A stretch of 64,000 nucleotides of DNA, from contig NW_025813745.1 of NCBI RefSeq assembly GCF_021917145.1, positions 46,001-110,000 of the forward strand, in the 5' to 3' direction. The notes under the pieces were generated by a model. The model was not told the origin of the DNA, did no database searches, and saw only the letters and a program-made list of their open reading frames with translations. The position numbers and the translations under genes are program-made. Origin of the DNA: Hypomesus transpacificus. Lineage: Eukaryota; Chordata; Actinopteri; Osmeriformes; Osmeridae. The number at the start of each line of letters is the position of its first letter. Positions within the stretch are counted from its first letter, which is position 1. Shown here piece by piece: positions 4,128 through 29,841 of this stretch.

Positions 4128-7386
<3,259 letters not shown>

Positions 7387-7659
7387 CTTAATGTACAAGG
7401 ACCTGAGTAACTATGTGAAACAAACAAAAGAAGAACGTTGTTAGGGTCGGCACACAAAGTTATACAGATCAATTACACACAACTTTTTTTTCTTGTCACT
7501 GATATGGGTTAGATAATGTATAGGCAAATATATATATATATATACAATAATTACATAATCATTTTAACTTAACTACCTCTACCATTCGATAAGTGTTGTG
7601 TAGCAAAAGCACCACTTTCCGCAACTTGCTTAGCGTTAAGTGGGGAGATTTTAGGGTTA

Positions 7660-9324: not shown

Positions 9325-9393
<69 letters not shown>

Positions 9394-9412
9394 GAGAGAG
9401 AGAGAGAGAGAT

Positions 9413-9456
<44 letters not shown>
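9325..9456. repeat. compound (TG)n-(AG)n-(G)n microsatellite
   Basis: A pure (GT)n run of about 31 units passes directly into (GA)n with two interruptions, then into a G run of about 11. It lies about 180 bp upstream of the microprotein ATG and may be within its 5' UTR or promoter. Peptides from ORFs across it are low-complexity translations of the repeat. Confidence 0.95.
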
Positions 9457-9633
9457 CAGAGAAAGAGATAGTACTGTGTGTGCATTTTGTGTGCAAGTGA
9501 GCCAGCTCGTCCCTCCTCAACAGTTGCCTTCGCTGCCTGAGAACCGAGAGGATAACAAAAGTGTGCTGCTCCTGAGCCAGACGCCGTTAGCGCGGAGCCA
9601 CACTCTGCTCTGCTGGCTGTCTCTTGCTCTGAC

Positions 9634-9762
9634 ATGCAGTCGATCATCTCCCCGGTGACTAAGGCCATTCTAGTTGCGCTTTTTATCTTCGCCATCCTCC
9701 TCATTCTCTATGTGATCCTCTGGTACATATGTAGAGACGTTGACTGTGATCACGGGATCTGA
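9634..9762 (+). CDS. 42-residue single-pass membrane microprotein (unrecognised)
   Basis: A 42-codon ORF that I do not recognise. Residues 1-9 (MQSIISPVT) and K10 precede a strongly hydrophobic segment at about residues 11-31, rich in I, L, V and F and ending in Y and W residues. Then comes a short polar tail, CRDVDCDHGI, with two cysteines and three aspartates. This is the layout of a small integral membrane protein: one helix and short termini on both sides. An in-frame TAA at 9553 with no intervening ATG fixes the start. The stop is followed 68 nt later by a consensus splice donor (CCT|GTAAGT at 9830), so the exon probably belongs to a spliced transcript. It lies head-to-head with znf148 and about 4.7 kb upstream of dhrsx in the same orientation. 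The non-random composition argues that it is real, but there is no expression or conservation evidence here. Confidence 0.6.
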   Translation: MQSIISPVTKAILVALFIFAILLILYVILWYICRDVDCDHGI

Positions 9763-12700
9763 TCTACCTTCACGGAATTACGGATCAATCAAAAGCCAAG
9801 TGGGAACCGCACAGAAGGAGGGTCACCCTGTAAGTCAGCATGCACGTGTGTGTTTTATGTGTGTGTTTGTGTGTGTGTGTGTATTTGTGTGCACGCCTGA
9901 TAATGAGACACCTTGACGCGCGCAACATTAAAAGGTGCTCTGGCAGTGAAGACAAAACCATGTCCCGCGTGTATCCCTGTGGGCTTCTTTTCACCTAAGG
10001 CAATGTGTTTAAAATGCCTTCCAGACTTACTCACATCAGCAATCAGTGTAGCTGTGGATGTATTGAGCCTAAAGGTGAAACAATGTCATCGATAATAGAA
10101 AACCGTTATCTCTGCCATCTAACTGAGGCAGGACCGGTTTATTAGAGCGCGAAGACAGCTAAATGACATTGCACTGGGACAGTGTAGTGATGGACAATAT
10201 CGGATTAGCAGACGGTGCCAATATTGTCTATCATGTCTTTGTAATAAACTCGCGTGTGTGTATGTGCGTGTGTGAGCGCATTGTCCGTTGGAGCAACACG
10301 CGCGCTCTGTTCGGAGCTGCAGCATTAGTTCATTTTCAGTTCAGCTTGTCTCTTAAGGATGCCGCCTTGACATTAGCATTTACATCGAAAACAAGCAAGA
10401 TAACAAGAAAGATCAAAGTAACAAGATCATTGCCGCAAAATGTATATTACTCCATTCTCTTTTCATAGGCTAAAGTGTGCTTATCACGGCATTGCCCGTT
10501 CCTCCTCCTCACGGTATTGCTATTGGTTTCCAGTTTTTACGCATAGCTAATATGTGTAAATTGTTTACAGTTAAATGTTATTTGCCATCGTGTCCCTCGG
10601 TGTCCATTTGACCTTTCATTCAGACCCCCTATTTATGTGTTTACAATATTAGCCCGTGCGTAAATGAAGGACATAAAATAAATCTAAATAGGCCACAGCT
10701 CCGTTGACTTTAACCCTAAATCAAACTGGTATTAACACGTTTCACCTGTAGAATGAGTACAAAGATCTTGCCATGTCCTTCCTCGGCTTTCCCCTAAAGA
10801 CATCCGAGCAAACTGCCCAAATGTGATCCTGAAGGACAAATCAAGGGCACAATGTAGGCTATAGCCTTCTGCTCCATACCTTTAAGTAAATTCAGTTTTG
10901 ACCCTGATGCATTTCTGAAAACAGAAAAAGTCAGATTATGACAGACTTGTATGGTATAGTAGGCCTATTGTCTATTCATGCGGGAACCCACATCAAAAGA
11001 AAAGGCGCAATACAGATGGTGGTCTAAAGAGTTTGATTCATGAATGTCGCATCCCACATCATCTCAGTCTTGGATAACCGGTATGTGTGGTGTGTCTTTG
11101 TAGCAGCCAGCTCTGTATTTGCCCTATATTACAGGCTAATTGGGATCATCAATCCCCATGAGTGTGTGACTTATAACTGTGTAATATTAATACCCTATAA
11201 TAACCCCACATCAATATTTATTTTGATCTTAAACAAAAAAATGAATGGACTCAAAAAACGTTTTTACCTCAAATTCCTGGTCCTCATAGCTGTGACTAAT
11301 CCCAGCCCCCACACCTGTACCAGCCCGCGCTGTCTCTCTCTCACAGAGACTTATCAGCCCCCACCAGTGACCTCTATTCGTGTGCTTCCCAGAAAGACCG
11401 AGGAGAGCCTGTTCAGAAGGGTACACGACTGTCGACAACAACCACGCCACATTATCACTCCTAATACACTTTGAGTTCTGCATGTCAGTTCAAATGTCCT
11501 GAATCACTGTGTGTGTGCGAGCGCGCGCGCGTGTGTGTGTGTAAGTGCAAAAGAGATGCGACAAAAGAGAGTATGCGCATGGGAAGATGTTTTAAACTCT
11601 GAGACGTCGTCTCGAATGGCAAGCGGAAAAAAGTGGAGCAGGAGAAACGGATCTGGGACCGTGGGTTCATGAGAGACAGATGAGTGTGGTGTGCCACTGC
11701 TTAACACCAGCTGCCACTGCCAAAGCCATCCCATCATTTTTACTCACATGCGCTCACATCACTTGCCCCCCCCCCCCCCCCCCCAGACATAGCGGGCCCC
11801 CACTCATACACCAAGAAACATCGCACCCGCTTACGCACACATGCGTGTGCACACGCGCACGCACACACACGCACACACCTCAAAGCTGTAAAAATAGATC
11901 TTGTGTGACTCAGCTGTTATGTAAAGTCTGTCTCTGATAGGAAGGCCTGAGGCTCTTTCTGTCACTTCAGCTTGACGGTCAGGAGCTGAGGTGACGTGTG
12001 TCCGCAGTGGCCAAGTCTCGGCTCCGCTCCTCTCCCCCGTCTCCCATCTCCCATCCTCCCCCATCCCCCCCCCTCCCCGTCAAAGGACGCACTGCCCCTC
12101 CTGGGTACGGTCAGTGTGGCATCAACACCGCCCAGCGTGTGCTTGGACCCGATCTTACGTTGACTTTCTCATTTAGAAAGAGGAGAAGAGTGCGAGAAGG
12201 GGATTATAGGCTCTGTTTAGGGTGGAGGGTCAAGAGTCGGACTGATCCGTCCACTCGAACGACACATTTCAAACACACACCCACACGGGCGCACACACTC
12301 CGTTTCTCTTCCGGCACATGTCCACACACTGACAGGATGAAGCATGAAGTGGATTACGGGCCTGTGTGCGTGAGACCCCGACTGCGAGCAGAGAGCGGGA
12401 TCAGGGTGACGTGCCCGAGACTTCTCAGCACCTCATCGTAGGTCAGGGTTAAGGATACGCACATAGAATCAACAGGCCCAGTAGGTTCGAATGACTGCAA
12501 CACTGATAGGTAGAGTACATACAGTAGTGTTACACAATACTTAGAAGAGAATACGGGATTGTCTGTCGCATCGGAAATTAAATTACGTAGCGGCATTACA
12601 TATTTATCTTAAACTCTATATTTGTGCAGGTGTGTGTGTGTGCATGTGTGTCTAGCCTGTGTGTGTCTGTTGAGTTGTTCCAGCTCATAGCTACAAGGGT

Positions 12701-14476: not shown

Positions 14477-15786
14477 ATGTCTCTCCTTGCGTATATTCTA
14501 CCGATAATCAGGATTTATCTGGTCGGTTTGAAGGTTTTACTATGTCAAATGTTTAGCAGTCCTTTCACGTTGCCAGGTTGGTTCAGAGCTCATCCCGTAT
14601 GCGATGATGAACGATTAGATTAGACGAAAGGTAGCCAATAGCTCTGCATATATCATGTTGGAACATCACGGTGTTATCTAAAATTAGATATATTACGCAT
14701 TTTTGCACCGAGAACATGATTTAATACTGCCAAAGTTTACACCACCGCCGCTGCCTCGCTGTATAGCATTGACAGCGTGTTCTCAGGCAGCCTAAAACTG
14801 CGTGCAGTCTGCGCAGTCCAACCAACCTGATAGTTTCATGAATATCAAATTTCAGCGTCTGTTTTCCTTTGGGGTGTAGCTATTACTAAATACTTCCCAA
14901 TCTAATGGTGGAAGGTTTTCATTATTATCAACACTTCGTATTATCGTAGAATATGTAAGGCCACCAGAGCATAGTAAAAATAGTAGATCATGTGCTTAAG
15001 TTTAACATCCCTCTTCCTCTGTCTTCTTCTATCAGTGATGCCCAATCAACATGGCAGGGTTGCCATAGTGACTGGAGGAGCCAGAGGGATTGGCTATGAG
15101 ATTGCTAGACACATGGCCAGCCTGGGGGCACATGTTATCATAGGTACAGTATTTACCACAACACCTGGGACTGTCACTCACAACACAGTTTATGACAGAC
15201 CTGTGTGAGAATAGTGAGCATTCAGGAAGTAAAATCACACTATGGTTTTCTTTGTTGCATTCCAGGTGTGAGTAATGTCTTAAGACTTATGCTGCATAGT
15301 CAGTCTTGTTCTGTTTGGCGAGGCACCAATGTATTGTTATAGTGAAATAATTAGGTTGTGTGTTTACTACCCACCCCTAGCCCAAAATATGCAAATAAAA
15401 AAATTGGCAAATTATTTCCTTAGGGCAAAGTTTTAATCATCGGTGTTTCTGACAAAAACCTTTATCCTGGAGTGTACTGTGTGTGGAGTTGGAGTGTGTA
15501 TGTGCAGAGGATTGTGTGCGTGTGCATATTAGCCTTCTGGCCCTCAGTCACACTGCATTCGTTATGAACAGGGAGTGTAGATATTCCTTCAGTTCTGCAT
15601 CACTGAAACAGGCTAAATGTTGCTGTGCCCTTGAAAAGGCCTACGTGATAATCCAAGATTAGTGTGTGGGCCATGGCTTGTCTCTCTCCGTTTCCTCTCT
15701 CTGCATCTCTGATATGAACTGCTTTTGGTTGTTTGTTTACCAGTAGGAGATAGCAGTCAATTTTTCTGCCTGCGTCCTACACCCCT

Positions 15787-26473: not shown

Positions 26474-29400
26474 TTTTCCCCTCCTTGAGTCACCACCTTA
26501 CCGCGGTGGAGGGGTTTGCGTGTCCTAGTGATCCTGGAAGCTATGTTGTCGGGGGCTTCATGCCCCTGGTAGGGTCACCCAAGGCAAACAGGTTCCAGGT
26601 GAAAGACCAGACAAAGAGTGGCTCAAAAAACCAACCATGAAGAAATACAACAATGGTTCTCAGTTGCCCCTGCCCGGAAGCGGGTCACCGGGGCCCCCCC
26701 CTGGAGCCAGGCCCGGGGGTGGGGCTCGATGGCGAGCGCCTGGTGGCCGGGCCTTTTCCCATGGGGCCCGGTCGGGCACAGCCCGAAGAGACAACGTGGG
26801 ACCCTCTTCCAGTGGGCTCACCATCCGCAGGAGGGGTCATGGGGGTCGGGTGCGGTGTGAGACGGGCGGCGGCCGAAGGCGGGGGCCTTGGCGGTCCGAT
26901 CCTCGGCTGCAAAAGTTAGCTTTAGGGACGTGGAACGTCACCTCGCTGGCGGGAAAGGAGCCTGAGCTGGTGCGCGAGGTAGAGAGTTTCCGGCTAGATA
27001 TAGTCGGCCTCGCCTCGACGCACAGCGTGGGCTCCGGAACCAGTCTCCTTGAGAGGGGCTGGACTCTCTTCCACTCTGGAGTTGCCCTTGGTGAGAGGCG
27101 TCGAGCTGGGGTGGGAATACTGGTTTCCCCTCGGTTCGGCGCCTGTACATTGGGGTTCACCCCGGTGGACGAGAGGGTAGCCTCCCTCCGCCTTCGGGTG
27201 GGGGGACGGGTCCTCACTGTCGTTTGTGCTTATGCACCAAACGGCAGCTCAGAGTACCCACCCTTTTTGGAGTCTCTGGGGGGGGTGCTGGAAAGCGCTC
27301 CTCCTGGGGATTCCCTCGTCCTCCTGGGGGACTTCAATGCTCATGTGGGCAATGACAGTGAGACCTGGAGGGGCGTGATTGGGAGGAACGGCCCCCCCGA
27401 TCTGAACCCGAGTGGTGTTTTGTTGTTGGACTTCTGTGCTAGACACGGTTTGTCCATAACGAACACCATGTTCAAGCATAAGGGTGTCCATATGTGCACC
27501 TGGCACCAGGACACCCGAGGTCTCAGTTCGATGATCGACTTTGTAGTCGTGTCATCGGACTTGGGGCCGCATGTCTTGGACACTCGGGTGAGGAGAGGGG
27601 CGGAGCTGTCAACTGATCACCACCTGGTGGTGAGTTGGCTTCGATGGTGGGGGAGGACGCCGGTCAGGCCTGGCAGGCCCAAACGTAATGTGAGGGTCTG
27701 CTGGGAACGTCTGGCGGAACCCTCTGTCAGAAGGAGCTTCAACTCCCACCTCCGGGAGAGCTTCGATCATGTCTCGGGGGGGGCCGGGGACATTGAGTCC
27801 GAATGGGCCATGTTCCGGGCCTCCATTGTTGAAGCGGCTGACCGGAGCTGCGGCCGCAGGGCGGTCGGTGCATGTCGCGGCGGTAACCCTCGGACCCGGT
27901 GGTGGACTCCGGAGGTGAGGGATGCCGTCAAGCTGAAGAAGGAGGCCTATCGGACTTTATTGGCTGGTAGGACTCCAGAGGCAGCTGATGTGTACCGGCA
28001 GGCCAAGCGGAACGCGGCTTTGGCGGTCGCGGAGGCAAAAACCCGGGCATGGGAGGAGTTCGGCGAGGCCATGGAGAATGACTTCCGAACGGCTTCAAAA
28101 AGGTTCTGGACCACCATCCGGCGGCTCAGGAGGGGGAAGCAGTGCTCTGTCAACACTGTATACGGTGGGGATGGTGCGCTGCTGACCTCGACGGGGGACG
28201 TCCTGGATCGGTGGAAGGAATACTTCGAAGACCTCCTTAATTCCACCAACACGCTTTCCGACGTGGAGGCAGAGTCTGGGGACATCGGGGGGGGCCCTTC
28301 TATCTCTGGGGCTGAGGTCGCCGAGGTGGTTGAAAAGCTCCGCGGTGGCAGGGCCCCTGGGGTGGATGAGGTCCGCCCGGAGTTCCTTAAGGCTCTGGAT
28401 GTTGTAGGGCTGTCTTGGTTGACACGACTCTGCAACATCGCGTGGACATCGGGGACAGTGCCTCTGGACTGGCAGACCGGGGTGGTGGTTCCCCTCTTTA
28501 AAAAGGGGGACCGGAGGGTGTGCTCCAACTTTAGGGGGATCACACTCCTCAGCCTCCCTGGGAAAGTCTATTCAGGGGTCCTGGAGAGGAGGGTCCGTCG
28601 GATTGTCGAACCTCGGATTCAGGAGGAGCAATGTGGTTTTCGTCCTGGCCGTGGAACAGTGGACCAGCTTTATACCCTCCGCGGAGTCCTGGAGGGTACA
28701 TGGGAGTTCGCCCAACCAGTCTACACATGTTTTGTGGATTTGGAAAGGGCGTTCGACCGTGTCCCTCGGGGGCTCATGTGGGGGGTGCTCCGAGAGTACG
28801 GGGTACCGGATTTCCTGATCGGGGCTGTCCGGTCCCTGTACGACCGGTGCCAGAGTTTGGTCCGCATTGCCGGTAGTAAGTCGAACTTGTTTCCGGTGAG
28901 GGTTGGACTCCGCCAGGGCTGCCCTATGTCACCGATTCTGTTCATTACCTATATGGACAGAATTTCTAGGCGCAGCCAGGGTGTTGAGGGGGTCCGGTTT
29001 GGTGACCTCAGGATCGGGTCGCTGCTTTTTGCGGATGATGTGGTCCTGTTGGCTTCATCGGGCCGTGACCTTCAGCTCTCACTGGAGCGGTTCGCAACCG
29101 AATGTGAAGCGGCTGGGATGCGAATCAGCACCTCCAAATCTGAGGCCATGGTAATCGACCGGAAAAGGGTGGAGTGCCATCTCCGGGTCGGGGAGGAGAT
29201 CCTGAACCAAGCGGAGGAGTTCAAGTATCTCGGGGTCTTGTTCACGAGTGAGGGAAGAATGGAGCGCGAGGTCGACAGGCGGATCGGTGCGGCGTCCGCA
29301 GTGATGCGGGCTCTGCATCGGTCCGTCGTGGTGAAGAAGGAGCTGAGTCGAAAGGCGAAGCTCTCTATTTACCAGTCGATCTACGTTCCTACCCTCACCT

Positions 29401-29841
29401 ATGGTCACGAACTATGGGTAGTGACCGAAAGAACGAGATCGCGAATACAAGCGGCCGAAATGAGCTTTCTCCGTAGGGTGTCCGGGCTCTCCCTTAGAGA
29501 TAGGGTGAGAAGCTCGGTCATCCGGGAGGGGCTCAGAGTAGAACCGCTGCTCCTCCGCGTCGAGAGGAGCCAGCTGAGGTGGCTCGGGCATCTGATTAGG
29601 ATGCCTCCTGGACGCCTCCCTGGTGAGGTGTTCCGGGCACGTCCCACTGGGAAGAGGCCCCGGGGAAGACCCAGGACACGCTGGAGGGACTATGTCTCTC
29701 AGCTGGCCTGGGAACGCCTTGGGGTCCCCCAGGAAGAGCTGGCGGAAGTGGCCGGGGGGAGGGAAGTCTGGGCCTCCCTGCTTAGGTCGCTGCCCCCGCG
29801 ACCCGATCCCCGGACAAGCGGTAGATGACGACGACGACGAC
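26474..29841 (+). mobile_element. full-length non-LTR retrotransposon (RTE/Rex-like LINE)
   Basis: A 3.37 kb element is bounded by identical 13-bp target-site duplications. It has a short 5' UTR of about 160 bp, one intact ORF (26637..29828) and an almost absent 3' UTR ending in a short GAC simple repeat. This compact plan, with one ORF carrying endonuclease plus reverse transcriptase, about 3.3 kb and a microsatellite end, fits the RTE clade (the fish Rex3 group belongs there). The clade call is from layout and memory of similar fish copies, not from a tree. It is GC-rich compared with its surroundings. Intact duplications and ORF suggest a recent insertion. Confidence 0.9.
26637..29828 (+). 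CDS. LINE polyprotein: AP-like endonuclease and reverse transcriptase
   Basis: A 1063-residue protein that would nick target DNA and copy the element's own RNA into the break. Residues 1-95 are rich in Gly, Arg and Pro. The exonuclease-endonuclease-phosphatase fold runs from about 96 to 335: TWNV with Asn100, LLGDFNAH with Asp232 and Asn234, SMIDFVV, and STDHH with Asp327 and His328. The position that normally carries the metal-binding Glu reads LASTH. Reverse transcriptase follows: LFKKGDRR and [32 protein letters not shown] (Asp701), [13 protein letters not shown] and FADD (798-801). The C-terminal part has YLGVLF, TYGHELW and [10 protein letters not shown] followed by [15 protein letters not shown]. 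No frameshift or internal stop is seen. The start codon is the first in frame; a later start is possible because the first 95 residues are low-complexity. Confidence 0.92.

Follow-up and report, generated by a model that had tools for sequence, protein, structure and literature searches.

A predicted 42-residue membrane microprotein in Hypomesus transpacificus, one of at least three paralogues under purifying selection

The window, i.e. the whole stretch of 64,000 nucleotides analysed here, corresponds to positions 46001-110000 of the contig denoted C77 in the 437 Mb genome of this fish. The relatives described below were found by a protein search over the same genome and are hence paralogues within one genome. 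The features around the microprotein frame are as follows.

9634..9762, + strand: microprotein ORF of 42 codons plus TGA (ATG 9634-9636, TGA 9760-9762, G at -3), with the translation MQSIISPVTKAILVALFIFAILLILYVILWYICRDVDCDHGI
9553..9555, + strand: in-frame upstream stop TAA, read from the sequence
9664..9732, + strand: predicted membrane helix AILVALFIFAILLILYVILWYIC, codons 11-33 (top 19-residue Kyte-Doolittle mean, KD19, 3.34; AlphaFold2 helix 7-40)
9688..9744, + strand: invariant block FAILLILYVILWYICRDVD, codons 19-37, identical across the three paralogues
9830..9835, + strand: putative splice donor GTAAGT (sequence CCT/GTAAGT), 67 nt after the stop
6985..7410, - strand: znf148-like N-terminal exon, the head-to-head neighbour (named after the human protein; Pfam gave no family)
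14477..14576, + strand: coding part of dhrsx exon 1 (33 residues), presumably ending before a GT (tblastx against the C12 locus, sequence)
about 15036..15143, + strand: dhrsx exon 2 (37 residues), with putative splice borders (tblastx and sequence)
19952, 20149, 20518 and 22099, + strand: further dhrsx pieces (match pieces)

The letters of this frame are largely as the original prediction had given them, with an ATG-to-stop frame and an in-frame stop upstream, a single hydrophobic stretch (about residues 11-33), a basic residue ahead of it (K10) and the tail CRDVDCDHGI. The donor sequence is also as claimed, but its distance from the stop is 67 nt by our count and not 68 nt. GT and AG dinucleotide arrays precede the frame (window 9326-9446) and a GT array lies past the donor (9846-9891). 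A DNA search of 9500-9900 against the genome gave 57 non-self matches, all at query positions 335-401, i.e. the post-donor GT repeat, and these were set aside. Elsewhere in the window, 26532-29828 (+) holds a LINE-type element with endonuclease and reverse transcriptase domains (Pfam), which is possibly young since a single frame is open across its 1098 aa.

The protein search (E <=10) matched three of three scored candidates, with E values of 5e-21 (the window copy itself), 3e-20 and 8e-15, and none of them contains a stop. The two copies outside the window, referred to by their contigs C12 and C5, are the following.

C12:2683898-2684023, - strand: full-length copy of 42 residues, 95% identity (genome protein search)
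C5:3032593-3032712, - strand: copy matched over residues 1-40, 80% identity (genome protein search)

The C5 frame is 41 residues long and ends in DNDYI. All three copies are open from ATG to stop, and the sole indel among them is one whole codon absent from the C5 tail, which leaves the frame intact. The paralogues number at least three, and further ones may exist in the genome. Ungapped identity inside the frame, counted per 120 bases, is 91 for window-C12, 93 for window-C5 and 78 for C12-C5, and in the 120 bases before or after the frame it is 29-39 of 120 among the three pairs. The blastn alignments of the window cover 9631-9763 against C12 and 9619-9762 against C5, so neither extends more than 15 bases past the frame; C12 and C5 gave no blastn alignment with one another at E 0.01, although 78 of their 120 bases agree ungapped. 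The in-frame residues upstream of the ATG are unrelated among the copies. Judging from these comparisons, the conserved unit is the reading frame. A tblastx comparison of window and C5 with low complexity masked returned mostly antisense or shifted frames of the ORF, which were discarded; those frames hold stops in the window copy, as does every one of the five other reading frames.

The names dhrsx, zbed1, gyg2, znf148 and TMEM47 used here are those of the human proteins that the ORFs resemble, and are presumed to apply. The dhrsx gene was named by its match to the human protein sequence, and the single window dhrsx piece tried in Pfam matched no family. In both the window and C12, dhrsx exon 1 is the next conserved same-strand element found downstream of the microprotein, lying beyond the donor by about 4.6 kb in the window and about 1.8 kb in C12. 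The C12 order is microprotein (2684023), dhrsx exon 1 (~2681974), zbed1 coding exon and dhrsx exon 2 (~2678280), the zbed1 coding exon (ATG 2681198; BED finger confirmed by Pfam) being located inside dhrsx intron 1 (about 2681873 to 2678280). The corresponding window intron (14577-15035) is only about 460 bp long, and the zbed1 probe found no match within 84 kb around the window copy. Over six exon pieces dhrsx is identical at 172 of 294 residues between window and C12, so the microprotein, with 40 of 42, is the more conserved. Opposite to dhrsx, the C12 microprotein is flanked by a CD99L2-family ORF (PF12301, E 3e-20) and a putative glycogenin-like ORF, the latter matching Glyco_transf_8 at only E 0.0094, below the cut-off. 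The flanks of mammalian ASMT include GYG2, CD99, ZBED1, DHRSX and akap17a, and those of fish ASMT1 include akap17a, sept10 and a gene printed as slc1za8, which we read as slc12a8, in the account given in PMC6151645. The window carries AKAP-17A, O-methyltransferase and septin ORFs, the septin at family level only. From these flanking genes, the window and C12 loci look like two halves of one duplicated block.

The C5 copy is located in another block, together with a doublecortin N-terminus, a TMEM47-like ORF, a leucine-rich-repeat gene and the following ORF.

C5:3018553-3018900, - strand: SERTM-like ORF (PF15872, 22.5 bits, below the cut-off of 27)

The doublecortin gene scores 238 bits to full-length DCX, and it is likelier to be DCX than DCLK1 since the scores over the shared domain are higher for DCX fragments spanning it (139-144 bits) than for DCLK1 fragments (123-129 bits). 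The SERTM-like ORF follows the C5 paralogue ~13.7 kb further downstream in the same orientation, with the opposite-strand TMEM47-like gene, whose weak Clc-like Pfam match is below the cut-off, between them. No match to dhrsx was found within 80 kb around the C5 copy. In human, DCX and SERTM2 are found together at Xq23. The microprotein had also been described as head-to-head with znf148, and the orientation is right; the neighbourhood, however, is local to the window copy, because no znf148 piece matched in the 30 kb around the C12 or C5 copy. C2H2 fingers were recognized by Pfam in one of the three znf148 ORFs, and at E 0.001 a genome search with the N-terminal exon gave one match. The neighbour common to two of the three copies is, by the matches given above, dhrsx.

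The substitutions between paralogues fall mostly where they do not alter the protein. Between the window and C12 copies 31 of 126 bases differ, distributed as 7, 0 and 24 over codon positions 1, 2 and 3, and the stop codon is the same. The synonymous versus nonsynonymous comparison put forward in the original prediction, run here between paralogues, gave 24 silent codons and only two residue-changing ones (I4L and A11T). When 31 changes with the transition count matched were placed at random in 20,000 trials, they caused 19.5 residue changes on average and 12 at minimum; none of the 20,000 placements gave two or fewer, and 53% of the trials created a stop. The YN00 estimates are dN 0.052 and dS 1.39 for this pair, for which dS is saturated by NG86. 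The comparison with C5 shows milder selection: in register, this copy differs from the window copy by 8 substitutions and one deleted residue, and the estimates are dN 0.150 and dS 1.35 by NG86 and dN 0.181 and dS 0.671 by YN00, with one codon out of register in both. The unregistered counts are 15 silent and 10 changed codons of 42 for window-C5 and 22 and 11 for C12-C5, each including two misregistered codons. The three copies do not differ at any of residues 19-37, and the 19 codons that encode them carry 12 (window-C12), 10 (window-C5) and 15 (C12-C5) silent differences.

This constraint goes beyond keeping the helix greasy. Were residues 11-33 required merely to stay hydrophobic, 10.7 changes would be expected between the window and C12 copies, with a minimum of 4 in 2000 simulations, and a single one was seen, at the border; the exact residues are therefore under selection. 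Residue-level selection of this kind is as expected for a helix packing against something. Because the paralogue DNA has drifted mostly at silent positions, the protein has been kept for a long time. The window ORF is, from these sequence comparisons, almost certainly a protein-coding gene. The original description of it as a real, easily overlooked coding gene is thus supported, given three paralogous frames, purifying selection and no frame-breaking indel.

Single-pass microproteins have fewer than 100 aa and one hydrophobic helix of ~20 residues, and the present chain has 42 aa and the KD19 given above. AlphaFold2, run with a three-row alignment, predicts one helix over residues 7-40 with a mean pLDDT of 85.6 and a pTM of 0.50. 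Any sequence of this sort would be expected to give a confident lone helix, and the model is hence uninformative on a partner. The chain is very probably inserted in the membrane. The charges kept in all three copies are K10 and the N-terminus before the helix, and R34, D35, D37 and D39 after it. With a single lysine and the N-terminus on one side and R34 and three Asp on the other, this distribution suggests a topology with the N-terminus inside and the C-terminus outside.

A GTAAG donor follows the stop in all three copies, as GTAAGT after 67 nt (window) and 79 nt (C12) and as GTAAGA after 40 nt (C5), whereas the background frequency of GTAAG, counted over the sense strands of the examined stretches, is 0.56 per kb. 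These donors suggest that the microprotein exon is probably spliced to something downstream, and such onward splicing would agree as well with a leader exon belonging to another gene. An AATAAA lies past the stop by about 480 nt in the window, 510 nt in C12 and 330 nt in C5, and could terminate an unspliced transcript.

Several other readings of this frame were considered. That it arose by chance within low-complexity DNA would agree with the behaviour of GT repeats in the window. We compared the ATG ORFs of 30-100 aa in the 64 kb whose best KD19 is at least 2.5 (n=11). The microprotein has the highest value among them (the next is 3.19) and is the only window ATG ORF of this length at 3.2 or above, while 60 order-3 Markov copies of the window held on average 0.37 such ORFs at >=2.5, 0.05 at >=3.0 and 0 at >=3.2. 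However, eight of the ten remaining hydrophobic ORFs come from GT repeats and have CVCV-type sequences. Composition alone would hence not settle coding, and hydrophobicity by itself is weak evidence for it here. What decides is the paralogues and the substitution pattern, which exclude a chance ORF and leave it a negligible probability. The frame could also close a longer spliced protein as its last coding exon: in C12 and C5 a pyrimidine tract that finishes with CAG, a possible acceptor, is found 2 nt ahead of the ATG. This reading is highly improbable, in view of the window copy having no AG at that place, the G at -3 in all three copies and the unrelated residues upstream of the ATG in each.

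The chief rival takes the exon as a conserved 5' leader, joined by splicing to a same-strand gene further downstream (dhrsx or zbed1, or on C5 perhaps the SERTM-like gene), so that the microprotein would be an upstream ORF or first cistron of dhrsx or zbed1 transcripts; its translation would control the main ORF, and the peptide would act in cis or be the second product of a bicistronic mRNA. The position of the donors, 40-79 nt past the stop in all three copies, agrees with this, as do dhrsx exon 1 lying next downstream in both dhrsx-linked copies, a good-looking acceptor 53 nt before the ATG of the C12 zbed1 coding exon, and the SERTM-like ORF downstream on the same strand at C5. ZBED1-DHRSX is moreover a human promoter-sharing pair in a published table (PMC2568002). 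Yet the peptide stays nearly identical from block to block although the genes downstream of it are not the same, which argues that the peptide is what is kept. The microprotein is retained in the window despite the unmatched zbed1 probe and the short dhrsx intron 1, and it is present at C5, around which dhrsx has no match; by eye, no clear acceptor precedes the ATG of dhrsx exon 1 in either copy. Most regulatory upstream ORFs also show less whole-chain residue selection than the microprotein does. We consider this leader reading unlikely, though deserving of attention, and a bicistronic mRNA would not abolish the peptide's own function.

The reading that we favour, and regard as reasonably probable, is that of a 42-residue single-pass membrane microprotein, one of at least three paralogues under strong purifying selection, acting as a small accessory subunit. 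The chain would insert as one helix at about residues 11-33, with its basic N-terminal side in the cytosol and its acidic tail outside or in the lumen. The non-interchangeable helix residues, together with the interfacial WYICRDVD, may pack against a multi-pass partner such as a pump, channel, transporter or membrane enzyme, and this packing could tune the activity, stability or trafficking of the partner. That a specific helix-helix partner exists seems to us somewhat likely. With three paralogues, a core of 19 residues that does not vary and silent sites close to saturation, the family is unlikely to be dispensable.

We speculate, more tentatively and without expecting it to be the likelier outcome, that the family predates the teleost genome duplication and is perhaps as old as the jawed vertebrates, having spread by whole-genome duplication with the dhrsx/zbed1/cd99 and dcx/SERTM2 blocks. 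If so, tetrapod orthologues should be located upstream of DHRSX, between DHRSX and CD99, and near DCX/SERTM2, perhaps unannotated. The dhrsx/zbed1/cd99 block is that of human pseudoautosomal region 1, which would be among the likely places if the family reaches tetrapods. The dosage of genes in this region is considered relevant to Turner and Klinefelter syndromes. The small size of the microprotein makes tagging, knock-out and partner capture simple. Proteins of fewer than 50 residues are easily missed by annotation, and among the characterized ones are regulators of calcium pumps (PMC8396278) and of a potassium channel (PMC12019361).

The best Pfam-A match of the window copy spans residues 7-40 and scores 16.9 bits, where the cut-off is 27; the C12 and C5 copies also score below the cut-off. 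Weak, sub-cut-off matches to viral and parasite membrane proteins (ASFV p17, Orf78, LMP1, Vpu, Stevor, RIFIN, ETRAMP) and to PspC are centred on the helix, and we attributed them to composition. No PDB chain matched at E 10, and ten peptide strings had no text match in the papers searched. Among these papers we found none joining a microprotein with DHRSX and none on unannotated transmembrane teleost microprotein paralogues, and the term small integral membrane protein is absent among the listed papers that name two of DHRSX, ZBED1 and CD99. The word unrecognised, used in the original prediction, thus holds against the Pfam cut-offs, the PDB and the literature strings, but an annotation of the fish protein may exist in RefSeq, Ensembl or UniProt. 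Its kind, the single-pass vertebrate microprotein, is known; its family is, within the searches made here, not one that our analysis could name.

Among known systems the regulins (phospholamban, sarcolipin, DWORF, myoregulin, endoregulin and another-regulin) are of the same size class and have a single membrane helix, and a sarcolipin-like regulator of the SERCA calcium pump would fit the microprotein in length and in its one helix. The comparison used five peptides, namely sarcolipin, phospholamban, DWORF, myoregulin and OST4. The local alignment to sarcolipin was reached by 1 of 300 whole-chain shuffles (P 0.0033), and helix-only shuffles of sarcolipin gave P 0.027 for the window copy and 0.014 for C5. 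Sarcolipin is, however, the best of the five peptides and is not significant after correction with the stricter helix-only shuffle, and phospholamban, DWORF, myoregulin and OST4 have P 0.377 or more with such shuffles. The likeness to phospholamban and sarcolipin drawn earlier is accordingly weak in sequence. The regulins, described as small regulatory subunits of the calcium pump, have a polar residue at one place in the helix, the inhibitory Asn (Asn34 in phospholamban and Asn11 in sarcolipin), or, in DWORF, Pro15 (PMC8396278). Residues 11-33 of the microprotein contain no N, K, R, D, E, Q, S, T or P, so that the polar residue of the regulins is missing at the inhibitory place, where the alignment has a gap opposite Asn11 of sarcolipin; the microprotein also differs by its acidic CRDVDCDHGI tail. 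Membership of the regulins appears not to be supported by the sequences, and we hold it to be improbable.

SERTM2 (lncMN3), a micropeptide partner of the TASK1 potassium channel, is likewise a vertebrate single-pass microprotein, and its transcript was once called non-coding (PMC12019361). It differs in being longer and, as described in the same source, of type I, whereas the present microprotein has a 10-residue N-terminus predicted to be inside. The SRTM1 model PF15872 gave no match to the window, C12 or C5 chains. SMIM-type proteins and OST4 are short single-pass chains that are often accessory subunits. The microprotein is, like these proteins, short and predicted to cross the membrane once; its alignment to OST4 is no better than those of helix-only shuffles.
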